This document shows, piece by piece, positions 22,290-38,592 of a DNA stretch of 64,000 nucleotides. The translations under genes and the position numbers were made by a program. The DNA is taken from contig NC_014364.1 in assembly GCF_000143985.1 (NCBI RefSeq), forward strand, positions 1,364,001 through 1,428,000. Direction: 5' to 3'. Origin of the DNA: Sediminispirochaeta smaragdinae DSM 11293. GTDB lineage: Bacteria; Spirochaetota; Spirochaetia; DSM-16054; Sediminispirochaetaceae. The notes beneath the pieces were generated by a model. It ran no database searches, was not told where the DNA came from, and saw nothing but the letters and a program-made list of their open reading frames with translations. Positions within the stretch are counted from its first letter, which is position 1. Every line of letters begins with the position of its first letter.

Positions 22290-22385
22290 GGCCAGGAGTA
22301 TACACAATTGAACCCCTTTTTTACAGAATACTTACCAATGCTTGACCTATTTTCTGCATGCTTTGTCCAAAGGAGTGTGTATACC

Positions 22386-23267
22386 ATGACCTGCACAAGT
22401 AAACGTCATAATTCAATCGTCATTTTCATTCTCGAAGGGGAGATGGATCTCTATTCGGCATCGATTCTGAAGACGGAATTTGACAAGCAGCGAACGGCGG
22501 GGTTTCGCCGTTTCCTTATCGATTGCGGGGAGCTGAGTTATATCGATTCCAGTGGGGTGGGGGTGCTTATCTCGGTCTTTACCACCGCTCACCGCATGAA
22601 GGCACCGCTTTTTTTGTGCGGTATCCACGGAACGGTACGATCGGTTATCGAATATACCAAGCTTACCGGCTTCCTTCCCATGGTCGAAGCGCGGGAAGAG
22701 GCTTTGTCTCTGCTTGCCGCCTCCGGTACCGACAGTGAGAAACAGGAGGGCTATGACGAAAAGTGGATTCTTCAGGATGATAATCACCCGCTGCTCAAGC
22801 GGGAAGGGATGCTTCACAAGGACTTTCATCTCGACTTGAAGAAGGTCCGTCACCTCAGTCAGCTGATCGTGCAAAAGGCTCCGACCGAAATCAGGGATTT
22901 CAATCTCCTTGAACAACAGATCAGTGAGCTGGTCAAAAATGGGGTCCGGCACGGAAACAAAAATGATCCGAATAAAAAAATCGGCGTCTGGTTCCGTTTT
23001 TCCACCCATTCGGCCCACCTCATCGTAGAAGACGAGGGTGAAGGCTTTCGGAATATCGGGGAATGGAACAGCTTTTACGCGAAAAAACGGGAGGCGTTCG
23101 AGAAGCATGATTTTGAAGAGATGATGAACTATGTCTCTTTTCGCACCAGCACAAGCCGCGATGACGATGGAGGCAACGCCCTCTTTGCCGCTGTTGAGTT
23201 CTGGAACAGAGGGGTCGTCTTCACTGAGGCCGGCAATTGTGTTGCGGTTGCCCGCAGTTACGACTGA
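22386..23267 (+). CDS. Fused STAS anti-anti-sigma factor and HATPase anti-sigma (RsbW-type) protein
   Basis: 293 residues. Residues 1-115 are a STAS domain with the phosphorylatable serine motif YIDSSGVGVLIS. Residues about 145-293 are a GHKL ATPase/kinase domain with N-box ISELVKNGVRHGNKND, G1 box VEDEGEGF and a DDDGGNALFAAVEFW segment. In other bacteria these are separate, mutually inhibiting partners; here they share one chain. A paralogous unfused pair lies at 36527-37428. The gene is convergent with a CBS-SpoIIE phosphatase, stops 4 bp apart, the expected third member of a partner switch. AAAGGAG lies 10 nt before ATG 22386. Confidence 0.9.
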   Translation: MTCTSKRHNSIVIFILEGEMDLYSASILKTEFDKQRTAGFRRFLIDCGELSYIDSSGVGVLISVFTTAHRMKAPLFLCGIHGTVRSVIEYTKLTGFLPMVEAREEALSLLAASGTDSEKQEGYDEKWILQDDNHPLLKREGMLHKDFHLDLKKVRHLSQLIVQKAPTEIRDFNLLEQQISELVKNGVRHGNKNDPNKKIGVWFRFSTHSAHLIVEDEGEGFRNIGEWNSFYAKKREAFEKHDFEEMMNYVSFRTSTSRDDDGGNALFAAVEFWNRGVVFTEAGNCVAVARSYD

Positions 23268-23271
23268 GGGG

Positions 23272-24501
23272 CTATGCTATTTCCCATTGCATGGTTTGTT
23301 CGGGAGATAGGTCCATTTCCACTTCTTTTGCGTCGGGATAGCGAAAAATGAGGAATGTTACATCATCGTGGTAGGGGGCGTCCCCCCGAAAGCGATTGAA
23401 ATCCCTTCGGATATGGTCTCTGATGGATTCCGGCCCCTCCTCCCGATACGTTTTTATCACGGAAAAGAGGCGTGTCATGGAGTACTCCTGACCATCAAGG
23501 TTCTGCTGTTCGGTCAGTCCATCCGTAACGAGGATGAGGATATCTTTTCGAAGAAGGGTAAAGGTGCTCGGTTTCGGTTCGATCTGCGGGGTAATGCCTA
23601 TGGGGAGATTCTCGTTCGAGGTGACCACCTTCAATAACTTTTGTCCCCGTAAAAGTCCGAAATAGGAGTGTCCCATATCGAGGATGGTGATCCTGCCGCT
23701 CTTTTCGTCGAAAACAAGAAAGATTCCCGTGAGGAATTTGTCTCCCTCAAAGGTTGAAAAGACCGATCGGTTTACATGGGTGACGAAATCGACCAGGTTG
23801 TGCCGGGAGAAATCAAAGGTTTCGACACTTCCGTGCAGCATTGCCGTGACAATGGAGGCCGCGACCCCCTTGCCTGAAACATCACAGATCGTGATGAACC
23901 ATGTGCTGTCGCCGATTTTCTTTACCGCGTAGAAATCGCCTCCGACTCCCTTTGCCGTGGTTGAGCTTGCAACCACTTCGAGGTGGGTGGTGAGAACGGC
24001 CTGCCGTTCCTGAACGATACGCTTTTGTACATTGTGCGCAAGATCGATATCCTTTCTCGACAGGTCGGAAAGAAAGGTCAAAAGATCGAGGGTCGAGAAG
24101 GTACCGCAAAAGTGGCCGGCTTCATCGATGATGATGAAGACCGATTCCTCTTTGCTTGAAAGGGCTTCCGCGAGATATTCGGAGACGACCAGGATATGTT
24201 CCCGAAGCTTGAAGGAAGGGCGCTGCATGGTAATCTTTTTTACCGATCGATTTTTTAAGACATCGCGGCCGAAGGGGCGGCTCAAGAGGCTTGTCAACTG
24301 ATTCTGGTCGATCAGGCCTATTGGTTCCATCTTGTCGTTTACGACCCCGAAGGCGGGAATCTCTTCACCCCGTTCCTTAATGAACTCCAGCAGTTCCTCT
24401 ACCAATGTTTCGTAATGTACGTAGTAAAAGCTTGATGCAATCTTACCGAGAGCCTGGCTCGGTAGGAGTTCCGGTATCTGCATAGTGCCAATGTGTTTCA
24501 T
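23272..24501 (-). CDS. PP2C-type serine phosphatase (SpoIIE/RsbU-like) with N-terminal CBS pair
   Basis: 409 residues. Residues about 15-150 form two CBS-like repeats (AFGVVNDKMEPIGLIDQNQ; VFIIIDEAGHFCGTFSTLD), which may sense an adenine nucleotide. Residues 165-400 are the phosphatase, with metal-binding GVGGDFYAV, ICDVSGKGVAAS, LVTDGLTEQ and HDDVTFLIF. It is predicted to dephosphorylate a STAS protein, most likely the fused one encoded convergently. GAAGAGG precedes ATG 24501. Confidence 0.9.
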   Translation of the reverse strand: MKHIGTMQIPELLPSQALGKIASSFYYVHYETLVEELLEFIKERGEEIPAFGVVNDKMEPIGLIDQNQLTSLLSRPFGRDVLKNRSVKKITMQRPSFKLREHILVVSEYLAEALSSKEESVFIIIDEAGHFCGTFSTLDLLTFLSDLSRKDIDLAHNVQKRIVQERQAVLTTHLEVVASSTTAKGVGGDFYAVKKIGDSTWFITICDVSGKGVAASIVTAMLHGSVETFDFSRHNLVDFVTHVNRSVFSTFEGDKFLTGIFLVFDEKSGRITILDMGHSYFGLLRGQKLLKVVTSNENLPIGITPQIEPKPSTFTLLRKDILILVTDGLTEQQNLDGQEYSMTRLFSVIKTYREEGPESIRDHIRRDFNRFRGDAPYHDDVTFLIFRYPDAKEVEMDLSPEQTMQWEIA

Positions 24502-34321: not shown

Positions 34322-34657
34322 TCAGTTCTTTTTCAATAGACCTGCAATTTTCCAACTTGCGGTGAATTGGTTGTCGCTGGTCCGAAAAATGGCGATATCC
34401 TCGTTGATAGCCGCCTCTATCATCTCCTCCGGGGCTTTCCTCCCGTTGCAAAGCACGATTGCCCGAATCCCCGCAAGGCTTGCGACCGCCACGCTGTTTC
34501 GGTGTGCCTGGATGGTGATCAGCACGGAACTATCCGGAGCGTTGCCCATCACATCGCTGAGTAGGTCCGATGTATATCCATCGACAATCTCCGCTTCCAT
34601 TCCTTCCGAACAGAGGCATTCGTAGCCAAGCACCTTCCCAATGTCAGCCGTTTTCAT
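34322..34657 (-). CDS. DRTGG-domain protein
   Basis: 111 residues forming a single DRTGG domain, the small domain that precedes phosphotransacetylase in some Pta proteins. Landmarks are VLITIQAHRNSVAVASLAGIRAIVLCNG and a C-terminal DIAIFRTSDNQFTASWKI. ATG 34657 has GGAGGGAG upstream and lies inside the 3' end of the CBS-HATPase gene (14-bp overlap). The domain is thought to bind a small ligand. Part of the hydrogenase-associated trio. Confidence 0.85.
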   Translation of the reverse strand: MKTADIGKVLGYECLCSEGMEAEIVDGYTSDLLSDVMGNAPDSSVLITIQAHRNSVAVASLAGIRAIVLCNGRKAPEEMIEAAINEDIAIFRTSDNQFTASWKIAGLLKKN

Positions 34658-35603
34658 GTCGGACTCCCTCCTTTTCTTCTTCTTTATGAGGTAGCAGAAT
34701 TTCCGCCCGAGCAACGGTACCGCGTTCTGCCCCATCAGTATGCGATACAAGGGTGAATTGGTCCGCAACCCTGCGACAATTGGGCAGACCCATACCTGCA
34801 CCGAAGCCCAGGGACCTGATCCACTCATTTGCGGTAGTCCAACCTTCCTTGAGTGCTAACTCCACATCCTGAATTCCTGGACCGCCGTCTCTGCTTACAA
34901 TAACGATCTTCTGCTCGTCGATTTCAATCGAAATGGTACCGCCGTCGGAATGGACCACCAGATTCATCTCCAATTCGTAAGCGGCAATGGATACCCTTCG
35001 GATGATTTTTACATCGGTTCCCCGTTGTTTCAACAACTTTTTGATTTCCGTAGAGGCATGTCCGGCATTCTCGAAATCATTTCTGATTACCCGAAACTCC
35101 ATGGATGCTTTGCCCTGAAGCGCATCGGGAGAGGGGATGCTGATCCTTTCGATCCTCTCCATCTCTTTGTTTATTTCGACCAATAGCCTTGTAATGATAT
35201 CCCTGCTGGTGATGATTCCCACCAGTTTGTTGGTTTTATCGAGAATGGGAAAGCGATGGTATGAGTACTTTTCGAAGTAACTGATGGCAAAGCTGACCGG
35301 CATATCTTCCTCAAGAAATATGAGCTTTCTCGACATATGCATCTCTGCGGCCTCGTCGATATACCCGCCTTCGAGAGCCCGTATAATGTCGTCCATACTG
35401 ACGATACCGAACAATCTTCCGGACTCTGCAATCGGCATGCCTGTGATGCCTCGTCGTCTCATTGTCTGTTGTATTTCCCGGAGGGGAGTGTTTCGTCCTG
35501 CCGTCGTCACCTCTTTGCACATTACATCCTTGACCTTGAGACGATAGATCAATTCCAGAATAACGGTAGGAGAATCGTAGGTGTTGATCGGTATAGCCCG
35601 CAT
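34644..35603 (-). CDS. CBS-pair protein with RsbW/RsbT-type HATPase domain
   Basis: 319 residues. Two CBS domains (about 15-150: VKDVMCKEVTTAGRNTPLRE; LVGIITSRDIITRLL) precede a GHKL ATPase with N-box SIAAYELEMNLVVHSDG, G1 box RDGGPGI and lid GFGAGMGLPN. The clean ATP lid suggests an active kinase. The CBS pair would let adenylate levels or NADH-type ligands gate the activity. The start MRAIPINTY at 35603 has only a weak ribosome site. First gene of the CBS-HATPase/DRTGG/PHP operon. Confidence 0.87.
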   Translation of the reverse strand: MRAIPINTYDSPTVILELIYRLKVKDVMCKEVTTAGRNTPLREIQQTMRRRGITGMPIAESGRLFGIVSMDDIIRALEGGYIDEAAEMHMSRKLIFLEEDMPVSFAISYFEKYSYHRFPILDKTNKLVGIITSRDIITRLLVEINKEMERIERISIPSPDALQGKASMEFRVIRNDFENAGHASTEIKKLLKQRGTDVKIIRRVSIAAYELEMNLVVHSDGGTISIEIDEQKIVIVSRDGGPGIQDVELALKEGWTTANEWIRSLGFGAGMGLPNCRRVADQFTLVSHTDGAERGTVARAEILLPHKEEEKEGVRHENG

Positions 35604-35662
35604 AGTAGAAAGTATAGCGAAATACGGGCATAGACGGTAGGGGGCTATATATCTGGGAAGCT

Positions 35663-35691
35663 TGATTTCTTTTGGATTTCTTCCTATCCTG
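35663..35691 (+). promoter_or_regulatory. Weak candidate promoter of the MIF-like gene
   Basis: TTGATT, 17-bp spacer and TATCCT, about 27 bp before the ATG. Only partly like consensus. Confidence 0.3.
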
Positions 35692-35718
35692 TGAAAAAGT
35701 AAAGAAAGGAGTGAAATT

Positions 35719-36063
35719 ATGCCCTTTGTCAGTGTAGAAACAAATCTCGCCATCGATACGGAAAAACGCAAACAATTCTGTAAAGCACTCAGTTCTGCTG
35801 CCGCACAGGCTGTGGGAAAACCTGAGCAGTACGTCATGGCATTGGTTCGCAGTGATGCGGCCCTGACTTTTGGGGGGAGCGAAGAGCCTGCGGCTTTTGT
35901 TGAACTGAAAAGCATTGCTCTTGCCGAGGCCGCGTTAAAAGAGATCTCCCGCCGGTTTTGCACCCTCATCGAGCAGGAACTTGGCGTTCCCTCCGCCCGC
36001 ATCTACATTGAATTTACCAGTGCGTCGGGGGCATGGTGGGGCTGGAACGGTTCCACATTTTAG
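35719..36063 (+). CDS. Macrophage migration inhibitory factor (MIF) homologue, tautomerase superfamily
   Basis: 114 residues, the usual MIF length. It begins MPFVSVETNL, exposing the catalytic N-terminal proline after Met removal. Further MIF-like segments are PEQYVMALVRSDAALTFGGSEEPAAFVELKSI and IYIEFTSASGAWWGWNGSTF at the C-terminus. AAAGGAG precedes ATG 35719. It is predicted to be a small trimeric tautomerase; the biological role in a bacterium is unknown. Lone gene, convergent with a small XRE regulator. Confidence 0.88.
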   Translation: MPFVSVETNLAIDTEKRKQFCKALSSAAAQAVGKPEQYVMALVRSDAALTFGGSEEPAAFVELKSIALAEAALKEISRRFCTLIEQELGVPSARIYIEFTSASGAWWGWNGSTF

Positions 36064-36526: not shown

Positions 36527-36877
36527 ATGGACATAAAGCTGCGTCGTTATAATACTATTTATATTATCGATATCTCCGGGGATATGGACCTTTACAACGC
36601 GCATCGGTTGAAAGATGTCGTTGCCAAACTGATTGCAAAAGGTGTCTCGGAGCTTGTTATCAATCTCGAAAAGGTCGACTACCTTGACTCAAGCGGGGTA
36701 GGGGCGCTTATTCATGTATTCACGCAGGTCAAGCAGCGGGAGCTGCAGATGCGGATTACTCATGTCCACGGTTCTGTTGAAAAAGTTATCCGTCTGACCA
36801 AACTCATGGACTACTTCCCCATTGTCGACAGTGTAAAAGACGCTCTCTATGAATTGAGCGGAAAAGGGCAGCAGTGA
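36527..36877 (+). CDS. STAS-domain anti-anti-sigma factor
   Basis: 116 residues, a single STAS domain (LRRYNTIYIIDISGDMDLYN) with the phosphorylation motif YLDSSGVGALIHVF. GAGGT lies 6 nt before ATG 36527. It overlaps the HATPase gene by ATGA. In partner switching the unphosphorylated form would bind the anti-sigma kinase encoded next. Closely resembles the STAS half of the fused protein at 22386-23267. Confidence 0.92.
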   Translation: MDIKLRRYNTIYIIDISGDMDLYNAHRLKDVVAKLIAKGVSELVINLEKVDYLDSSGVGALIHVFTQVKQRELQMRITHVHGSVEKVIRLTKLMDYFPIVDSVKDALYELSGKGQQ

Positions 36878-37428
36878 TGGAATCGAGAAAAGAGATAATC
36901 GTCGATGGTTCTCACAAGCTTTTTGATCGAAAGGGAACCTTTCATAAGGAGTTCCCGAGCGACTATCGGCAGGTTCGTTTTTTTTCCATGTTGATTGCTC
37001 AGAAGGCACCCCCTGAGATTCGGGAGATCAATCTCCTTGAGCAGCAGATAAGTGAGCTGATCAAGAATGCAGTTCGTCACGGAAATAAAAAAGATCCTTC
37101 AAAGCATGTTCGCGTCTGGGCATCGTTCAGCGAGCATCATGCTCATGTTATTGTCGAAGACGAGGGTGCCGGGTTTCAAAACCTTGAGTCTTGGAATGAG
37201 TTTAATCGTCGGCGAAACCAGTGTTTCCGTGAGCATAATTACGAAGAGTTAGAAAAGTATTTTTCCTATCGTACATCGGAAAGTGAAGACAACGACGGAG
37301 GAAATGCCTTGTTTGCCGCCCTCGAATATTGGGATGGTGGTGTTGTATTTAACGAAAAAAGAAACACAGTTGCTGTGTACAAGCATTTCGACAACACCAG
37401 ACGGCCCGGTATCTCAAGGGAAGAGTAG
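36874..37428 (+). CDS. RsbW-type anti-sigma/switch-protein serine kinase (HATPase)
   Basis: 184 residues. The N-box is ISELIKNAVRHGNKKDP, the G1 box VEDEGAGF, and NDGGNALFAALEYW stands where the second ATP-lid motif lies. A spirochaete-like insertion WNEFNRRRNQCFREHNYEELEKY sits in the lid. Roughly half the residues match the second half of the fused STAS-HATPase protein by eye, so the loci are paralogous. It should phosphorylate the preceding STAS protein. No sigma factor is adjacent, so the final output is unknown. Confidence 0.9.
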   Translation: MMESRKEIIVDGSHKLFDRKGTFHKEFPSDYRQVRFFSMLIAQKAPPEIREINLLEQQISELIKNAVRHGNKKDPSKHVRVWASFSEHHAHVIVEDEGAGFQNLESWNEFNRRRNQCFREHNYEELEKYFSYRTSESEDNDGGNALFAALEYWDGGVVFNEKRNTVAVYKHFDNTRRPGISREE

Positions 37429-37440
37429 ACGGAGCCTCCA

Positions 37441-38592
37441 GTGGAGAGGATCGATACATCGTCAGTCATTGATCTCCCCGTGTCATTGATTCTTACCGAT
37501 GACGGGCTCTTTTTTTTCAGTAAGCATCGCTCCGCTCCCCATCAGAGAGACAAAGGTGGAATGTGCCTCGAGTCCTTCCCCGCATCGACGCTTCAGCGGA
37601 TGATACTTGCCGGGTATGTATCTTCGGTAGAGGTTTCGAGAAGCGATTTCACCTCAAAACGTCAGGAATTGATGGATGTCTCGAAGTTAATCATGTATGG
37701 TACCTTGTACCGCCATTTCCCCGATGCGCTCTGGAAATTGGTTGCTACCAGCGATCTCATCCTTCATTACAATCGATCACATCCGAAAACTCCCTTTACC
37801 CGGGAACATCTTGACCGGGGAGGGGCCATTGATGCTTCAGGACAAGGAACTGCGGCTCCTGCTTTGGCTCTGCTGGAAGAACTCTCTGTTTCTGCGGCAG
37901 ATGAGGCACTGAAGGAGCGCTCCTCCTTTTCCGAACAGGAAAAAGAGATGGCGAGGACAATCGGCCGTAGGTATCTGTCACACATTACCGCGCCCTTCTG
38001 GCTGCTGCTGTCTGCTTCCCAGAGGGCCGTAGCCGATCCGATGCTCGATACCTTAAGAGATTTGGTGGCCTCCTATATCGGAAAGGCTTCCATTTCCGAT
38101 TATTTAGCCCTCCTTCTCATGGAGCTTGGTGTCTATGCGGAGAAAAAGCTGGTAGGGCGGGCTACCAAGGAGCTTTTTCACGGGAATCTTGATGCCGATG
38201 CGGTCATGCGAAACGATGAGGCCAGAAGCAGGGTTCTTGCGGAAATGGAGCGCATGGGGTTCCGGGTGACGGTGGTCTGGAAGATTATGGGACGTACGGC
38301 TTCTATCGGCACCGACAATCGTCTGGAAGTAATCCTTTACGACCGGGGCAGCGATTCCGAAACCCTCAAGAATCAGATAGAGACCAAAAAGGGAATGGAT
38401 ACCAAAAATCACTCCCTTTTGGACTACTACGAGAAAATCGTCTCTTCAGCCAGCGGAGAGGAATTGGGACTTTTTTATCTTGGGTATATCGAAGAGGCGT
38501 GTCAAAAGCAGGATATTCGATTTGAGAGTCACGTTAGTAGAATCGAGAAAAACGATTTGACCATTGTCAGGTTAGCCTTCCACTTCAGGTGA
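37441..38592 (+). CDS. Protein of unknown function in a partner-switch operon, GTG start
   Basis: 383 residues, mostly helical, no signal peptide or membrane segment, not recognised. A short beta-rich start (DLPVSLILTDDGLFFFSKH) is followed by acidic helical regions (LALLEELSVSAADEALKERS; EKEMARTIGRRYLSH) and a C-terminal YEKIVSSASGEELGLFYLGYIEE. GTG 37441 has GGAG 6 nt upstream, 12 bp after the HATPase stop, so it is cotranscribed with the STAS/HATPase pair. It could be the output or scaffold of that switch. Its 3' end overlaps the convergent phosphatase gene by 8 bp. Confidence 0.75.
   Translation: MERIDTSSVIDLPVSLILTDDGLFFFSKHRSAPHQRDKGGMCLESFPASTLQRMILAGYVSSVEVSRSDFTSKRQELMDVSKLIMYGTLYRHFPDALWKLVATSDLILHYNRSHPKTPFTREHLDRGGAIDASGQGTAAPALALLEELSVSAADEALKERSSFSEQEKEMARTIGRRYLSHITAPFWLLLSASQRAVADPMLDTLRDLVASYIGKASISDYLALLLMELGVYAEKKLVGRATKELFHGNLDADAVMRNDEARSRVLAEMERMGFRVTVVWKIMGRTASIGTDNRLEVILYDRGSDSETLKNQIETKKGMDTKNHSLLDYYEKIVSSASGEELGLFYLGYIEEACQKQDIRFESHVSRIEKNDLTIVRLAFHFR

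Follow-up and report, generated by a model that had tools for sequence, protein, structure and literature searches.

The closest described systems are the SpoIIAA/SpoIIAB and RsbV/RsbW partner switches of Bacillus, in which antagonist and kinase are independent proteins that associate and come apart again and whose structures show the antagonist sitting on the kinase dimer (PMC7340262). Two proteins with related fusions are relevant here. Rv1364c of M. tuberculosis holds a GHKL kinase and a STAS domain in one chain together with PAS and PP2C domains, with the kinase listed before the STAS domain; it is reported both to phosphorylate and to dephosphorylate a serine in its STAS domain, and is a precedent for intrachain action of a kinase on a STAS domain (PMC10950880). 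Leptospira LvrC (PDB entry 9QIH) is a precedent in a spirochaete for an N-terminal regulatory domain fused to an RsbW-type domain (PMC13269768).

The protein described here is encoded in a window of 64,000 nucleotides, the whole stretch of DNA analysed, from the genome of Sediminispirochaeta smaragdinae (4.65 Mb, single contig). It joins a STAS domain and a SpoIIAB/RsbW-type kinase in one chain, with the following features.

22386..23267, plus strand: fused STAS and SpoIIAB/RsbW-type kinase gene, 293 aa (open frame, domains, sister-species conservation)
22369..22375, plus strand: Shine–Dalgarno-like AAAGGAG, 5' of the fused gene (sequence)
22386..22721, plus strand: STAS domain, residues 1–112 (Pfam PF01740, 1e-16; SpoIIAA fold, 1thn, Z 18.6)
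22545..22556, plus strand: DSSG acceptor motif, residues 54–57 (alignment)
22722..22757, plus strand: linker, about residues 113–124 (low pLDDT; sequence varies among relatives)
22758..23264, plus strand: GHKL serine-kinase domain, residues 125–293 (SpoIIAB 1l0o, Z 14.6; motifs)

A single uninterrupted frame runs from the ATG at 22386 to the TGA at 23267. The Pfam STAS match covers residues 6–106 and is over its curated cut-off, as is TIGR00377 on the same part of the protein. Ser55, within the DSSG motif, lines up with the serine that is phosphorylated in RsbV and is, by comparison with SpoIIAA and RsbV, the putative phosphorylatable serine. Profile and structure comparison of residues 125–293 leads to SpoIIAB/RsbW: SpoIIAB is the structural match, SpoIIAB sequence profiles match too, and the domain has the GHKL (Bergerat) fold with N and G1 boxes that characterizes these kinases (N box Glu181/Asn185; DEGEG at 216–220; a long lid; GGNA at 262–265). 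HATPase_c_2 matches residues 152–222 weakly (1e-3, under the curated cut-off), and the curated SpoIIAB/RsbW cut-offs are not reached by this domain (TIGR01925, 26.7 versus 135 bits; TIGR01924, 15.4 versus 155 bits; PF13581, 19.3 versus 27.4 bits). In sequence it is best described as a divergent relative of the TIGR01925/TIGR01924 equivalogs that lies outside them. The likeness to the Bacillus switches thus comprises both domains by fold and profile, the acceptor serine motif and the N and G1 boxes; DSSG and both boxes are kept in the fused proteins aligned.

According to AlphaFold the protein has two confident domains (mean pLDDT 88, pTM 0.58), with pLDDT <50 at residues 115–123; this is a model of two folded units joined by a flexible tether, and it does not fix their mutual placement. 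Searches of the PDB did not find a fused STAS–kinase chain, although one may still exist. The window chain, with its STAS domain first and a kinase as its only other domain, differs from Rv1364c in composition and order. LvrC is closer in layout, having an N-terminal alpha/beta regulatory domain, an RsbW-type Bergerat domain and a similar total length, and Foldseek aligned it along the model of the fused protein (E 1.4e-7, TM 0.34); a sequence profile search did not list it. In LvrC the N-terminal domain is a receiver of the response-regulator type that takes its signal from a histidine kinase, whereas that of the window protein is a STAS domain.

An earlier, sequence-only reading of the window had recognized an antagonist and an RsbW-type kinase in one chain, both halves of which appear to be intact, as the open frame and the Pfam, profile and fold matches bear out, and had allowed that a sequencing error might have joined two genes. 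Re-reading around 22740 shows neither a stop nor a frameshift. The sister species has a 97% identical protein in the same continuous frame, the frame is also continuous in 13 further genomes, and comparison with the sister species (dN 0.014, dS 0.167, dN/dS about 0.08, with both domains constrained) shows that the gene is under purifying selection. Against these observations, a sequencing error or a pseudogene as the source of the single frame is so improbable that it can be disregarded.

Relatives are common in the class, with 155 of 394 sampled genomes matching at 1e-20. In many of the unfused pairs elsewhere a single stop separates two genes that share a frame, and in many others the frames differ. 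A search for the fusion itself in other spirochaetes returned 15 genomes with no intervening stop: the window genome, its sister species and 13 further genomes, seven from family f19 (three of genus g59, three of g213 and one of g206), three from f73 and one each from f81, f17 and f64. Twelve of the fused loci have short linkers; the other three, all in f73, have about 45 to 70 residues between the domains.

L099, 5236–6255: long-linker STAS–kinase fusion, f73
L147, 5879–6877: long-linker STAS–kinase fusion, f73
L148, 6270–7382: long-linker STAS–kinase fusion, f73

The distribution is patchy, the fusion being present in seven of 26 f19 genomes; as most of the genomes sampled are not completely assembled, little weight should be put on an absence. 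In 299 genomes of another phylum (that of G594) there was no fused gene and only two distant unfused pairs. A scan of genome contigs, made to find named relatives, turned up a single distant STAS domain, and a scan of plasmids none. No paper in the open-access collection searched matched phrases for such a fusion, a narrow phrase search by which absence is unproved.

The window also contains a related unfused pair, spanning 36527–37428 and 14 kb from the fusion.

36527..36877, plus strand: unfused STAS paralogue (Pfam, comparison with the fused half, junction)
36877..37428, plus strand: unfused kinase paralogue (Pfam, comparison; TGATG overlap with the STAS gene; GTG at 36874 as an alternative start)

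The sequence-only reading had noted this pair and the likeness of the kinase halves over nearly their whole length, which amounts to 57% identity over 168 aa; the STAS halves are 37% identical over 114 aa. The ATGA overlap that it described at the junction is in fact TGATG, with the STAS stop at 36875–36877 and the kinase ATG at 36877, so that the genes share one base and lie in different frames. The unusual lid insertion that it remarked upon is real, with 41 residues from DEGEG (the G1 box) to GGNA compared with 21 in a canonical Firmicute homologue, from which the fused kinase differs by a lid 20 residues longer, as well as in its G2 box. The long lid is not peculiar to the fusion: it is common to the fused kinase, the window pair and the unfused spirochaete kinases aligned, and on this alignment is a mark of the spirochaete family. 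Upstream of the pair, 34644–36002 encodes two CBS domains and a GHKL ATPase domain in one protein, a further instance in which a sensing domain is joined to an anti-sigma-like kinase. On the 3' side, 37441–38592 encodes a protein of 383 aa that matches nothing in Pfam or NCBIfam; weak relatives of it (54–61 bits) adjoin the fused loci of two other genomes, G520 and G482.

The proximity of the pair, together with the 57% identity of the kinase halves, is what might suggest a local origin of the fusion by duplication of the pair and loss of the stop codon, as the sequence-only reading had proposed. The phylogeny of 38 kinases points elsewhere. The 12 short-linker fused kinases that it includes lie on one side of a branch (support 100/97), as do all 15 fused kinases when those of f73 are added (99/99). 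The window fusion groups with fused f19 genes (99/96) and the window pair with other unfused pairs, from its own family and from f15 (98/96); forcing the two window loci into a clade costs 51 units of log likelihood (p-AU 3.5e-6). Distant families share the fusion and, since the genes of the pair lie in different frames, stop loss alone could not have fused them. We therefore reject an origin by local duplication and stop loss. As the fused kinases form one clade and the constraint on the window loci is rejected, the tree indicates that the fusion is an old sublineage and not a local event, and the same-frame pairs with an intervening stop seen in many spirochaetes appear to be a better model of its ancestor. 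The STAS tree has the same outline, with weaker support because the domain is short, and its fused domains are more diverged than the unfused ones. Members of f19 fall in two different fused subclades, so the past of the fused genes must have included either an early duplication followed by losses or lateral transfer. A separate second fusion for the long-linker genes of f73 is not needed, as the 15 fused genes form one clade, although the branches are long. A tree rooted on Firmicutes places the fused genes inside the unfused ones, with an outgroup branch that is too long to trust.

The linker region itself contains, at 22744–22756, AGGAGG followed after 3 nt by an ATGA that is not in the frame of the fusion. 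This start-like site is retained in the sister species and was not seen at the other fused junctions. It might be read as a vestigial start site; chance is more likely, because the fused clade is old.

Directly 3' of the fused gene lies a gene that the sequence-only reading did not link to the fusion.

23272..24501, minus strand: CBS and SpoIIE-type PPM phosphatase gene (Pfam SpoIIE 1e-40, CBS 2e-5)

It is convergent with the fused gene, with a gap of 4 bp, and its translation has the acidic PPM motifs GGDFY, CDVSGKG, TDGLTE and DDVTF. The Bacillus switches likewise have a SpoIIE-type phosphatase counterpart; unlike the PP2C domain of Rv1364c, which is part of the chain, the window phosphatase has a gene of its own and carries CBS domains, the usual ligands of which are adenine nucleotides. 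In all 12 short-linker fused loci the gene adjoining the fusion encodes a SpoIIE/PPM phosphatase (in nine it converges on the fused gene and in three it runs in the same direction), and the remaining neighbours vary between lineages. The sister-species copy is 98% identical to that of the window. Nine of the ten phosphatase copies scanned, counting that of the window, have a CBS match: it is over the cut-off in the window copy and seven others and just below it in L057; L053 has none, and L050 ends at a contig end. The phosphatase tree mirrors the three fused subclades of the kinase tree (100/97, 98/96 and 100/99), and pairwise kinase and phosphatase distances are correlated (r 0.93, p 5e-5; r 0.69, p 0.0012 when thinned to seven loci), a correlation to which the shared ancestry of whole genomes contributes. 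No such phosphatase was present in the DNA fetched around the three f73 fusions. A further set of unfused STAS/kinase pairs (L094–L098, L126, L139, L141, L143 and L144) forms a third family that has diverged; most of these pairs are divergent in orientation from a CBS–PPM phosphatase gene. As related CBS–PPM genes adjoin this separate family, the association of phosphatase and kinase is wider than the fusion.

We consider it probable that 22386–23267 and 23272–24501 make up a compact partner-switch module, in which a tethered STAS domain and kinase work with a CBS-regulated PPM phosphatase. This reading builds on the identity of the domains, the intact active-site and acceptor motifs, the purifying selection, the single fused clade, and the linkage and co-inheritance of the phosphatase; from these we infer the phosphorylation, the direction of the switch and the client. 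Given the homology with SpoIIAA/SpoIIAB and RsbV/RsbW, the kinase should act on Ser55 and the neighbouring phosphatase should reverse this. A kinase homodimer would phosphorylate the STAS domain at Ser55, either within a chain or from one chain to its partner; the phosphorylated domain would come off the kinase face, leaving it free for a client, most likely a sigma factor. On a signal sensed by its CBS domains, the phosphatase would dephosphorylate Ser55, and the tethered STAS domain, present at high local concentration, would take the kinase face and the client would be let go. The tether would fix the ratio at 1:1, and the output would therefore be set by kinase activity versus phosphatase activity and not by the amounts of two free proteins. 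The observation of the fusion by the sequence-only reading is confirmed and its interpretation is supported only in part; its idea of the mechanism is plausible, and the fusion may, as it offered, make switching intramolecular or drive oligomeric assembly.

The tethered STAS domain could instead be mainly structural or autoinhibitory, with the fused kinase acting in trans on a separate STAS protein, either the unfused paralogue or one encoded upstream. A hint of this comes from G520, G482 and G419, in which a free STAS gene lies directly 5' of the fusion and no unfused kinase relative was found in the incomplete assemblies.

L052, 5990–6409: free STAS gene, immediately 5' of the fusion
L053, 3831–4208: free STAS gene, immediately 5' of the fusion
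L054, 7739–8113: free STAS gene, immediately 5' of the fusion

The greater divergence of the fused STAS domains would also fit. However, every fused STAS domain examined keeps the DSSG acceptor, and nine of the 12 short-linker loci have no upstream STAS gene, so we regard action mainly in trans as quite unlikely.

A partner switch of the kind that we prefer might also serve a client other than a sigma factor, such as another regulator or an enzyme. No SigB/F/G-subfamily sigma factor reaches its cut-off in this genome, and no sigma-factor gene was recognized beside the fused loci, the neighbours of which lay outside any sigma-family scan. Ten matches to the sigma-70 family over the general cut-off are nevertheless present in the genome, sigma factors are the typical binding partners of RsbW-type proteins, and LvrC, with its related architecture, is a proposed anti-sigma factor for which the sigma factor is likewise unknown (PMC13269768). 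A non-sigma client is thus possible, if somewhat unlikely. More tentatively still, and with appreciable doubt that all of its parts will hold together, the module could be a patchily distributed spirochaete device in which switching takes place wholly within one tethered dimer, is set by the adjacent CBS ligand-sensing phosphatase and controls a client that is not of the SigB/F type.

The usual account of partner switching is an exchange of free partners, the ratio of which sets the threshold. Permanent joining leaves the two halves of the switch unable to drift apart. A natural fusion of kinase and antagonist with its phosphatase, kept across several spirochaete families, is a tractable one-chain system in which one can ask how switching works at a fixed ratio and with binding that is intramolecular or between the chains of a dimer. 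Together with LvrC, it adds to the signs that spirochaetes join regulatory domains directly to RsbW-type domains.
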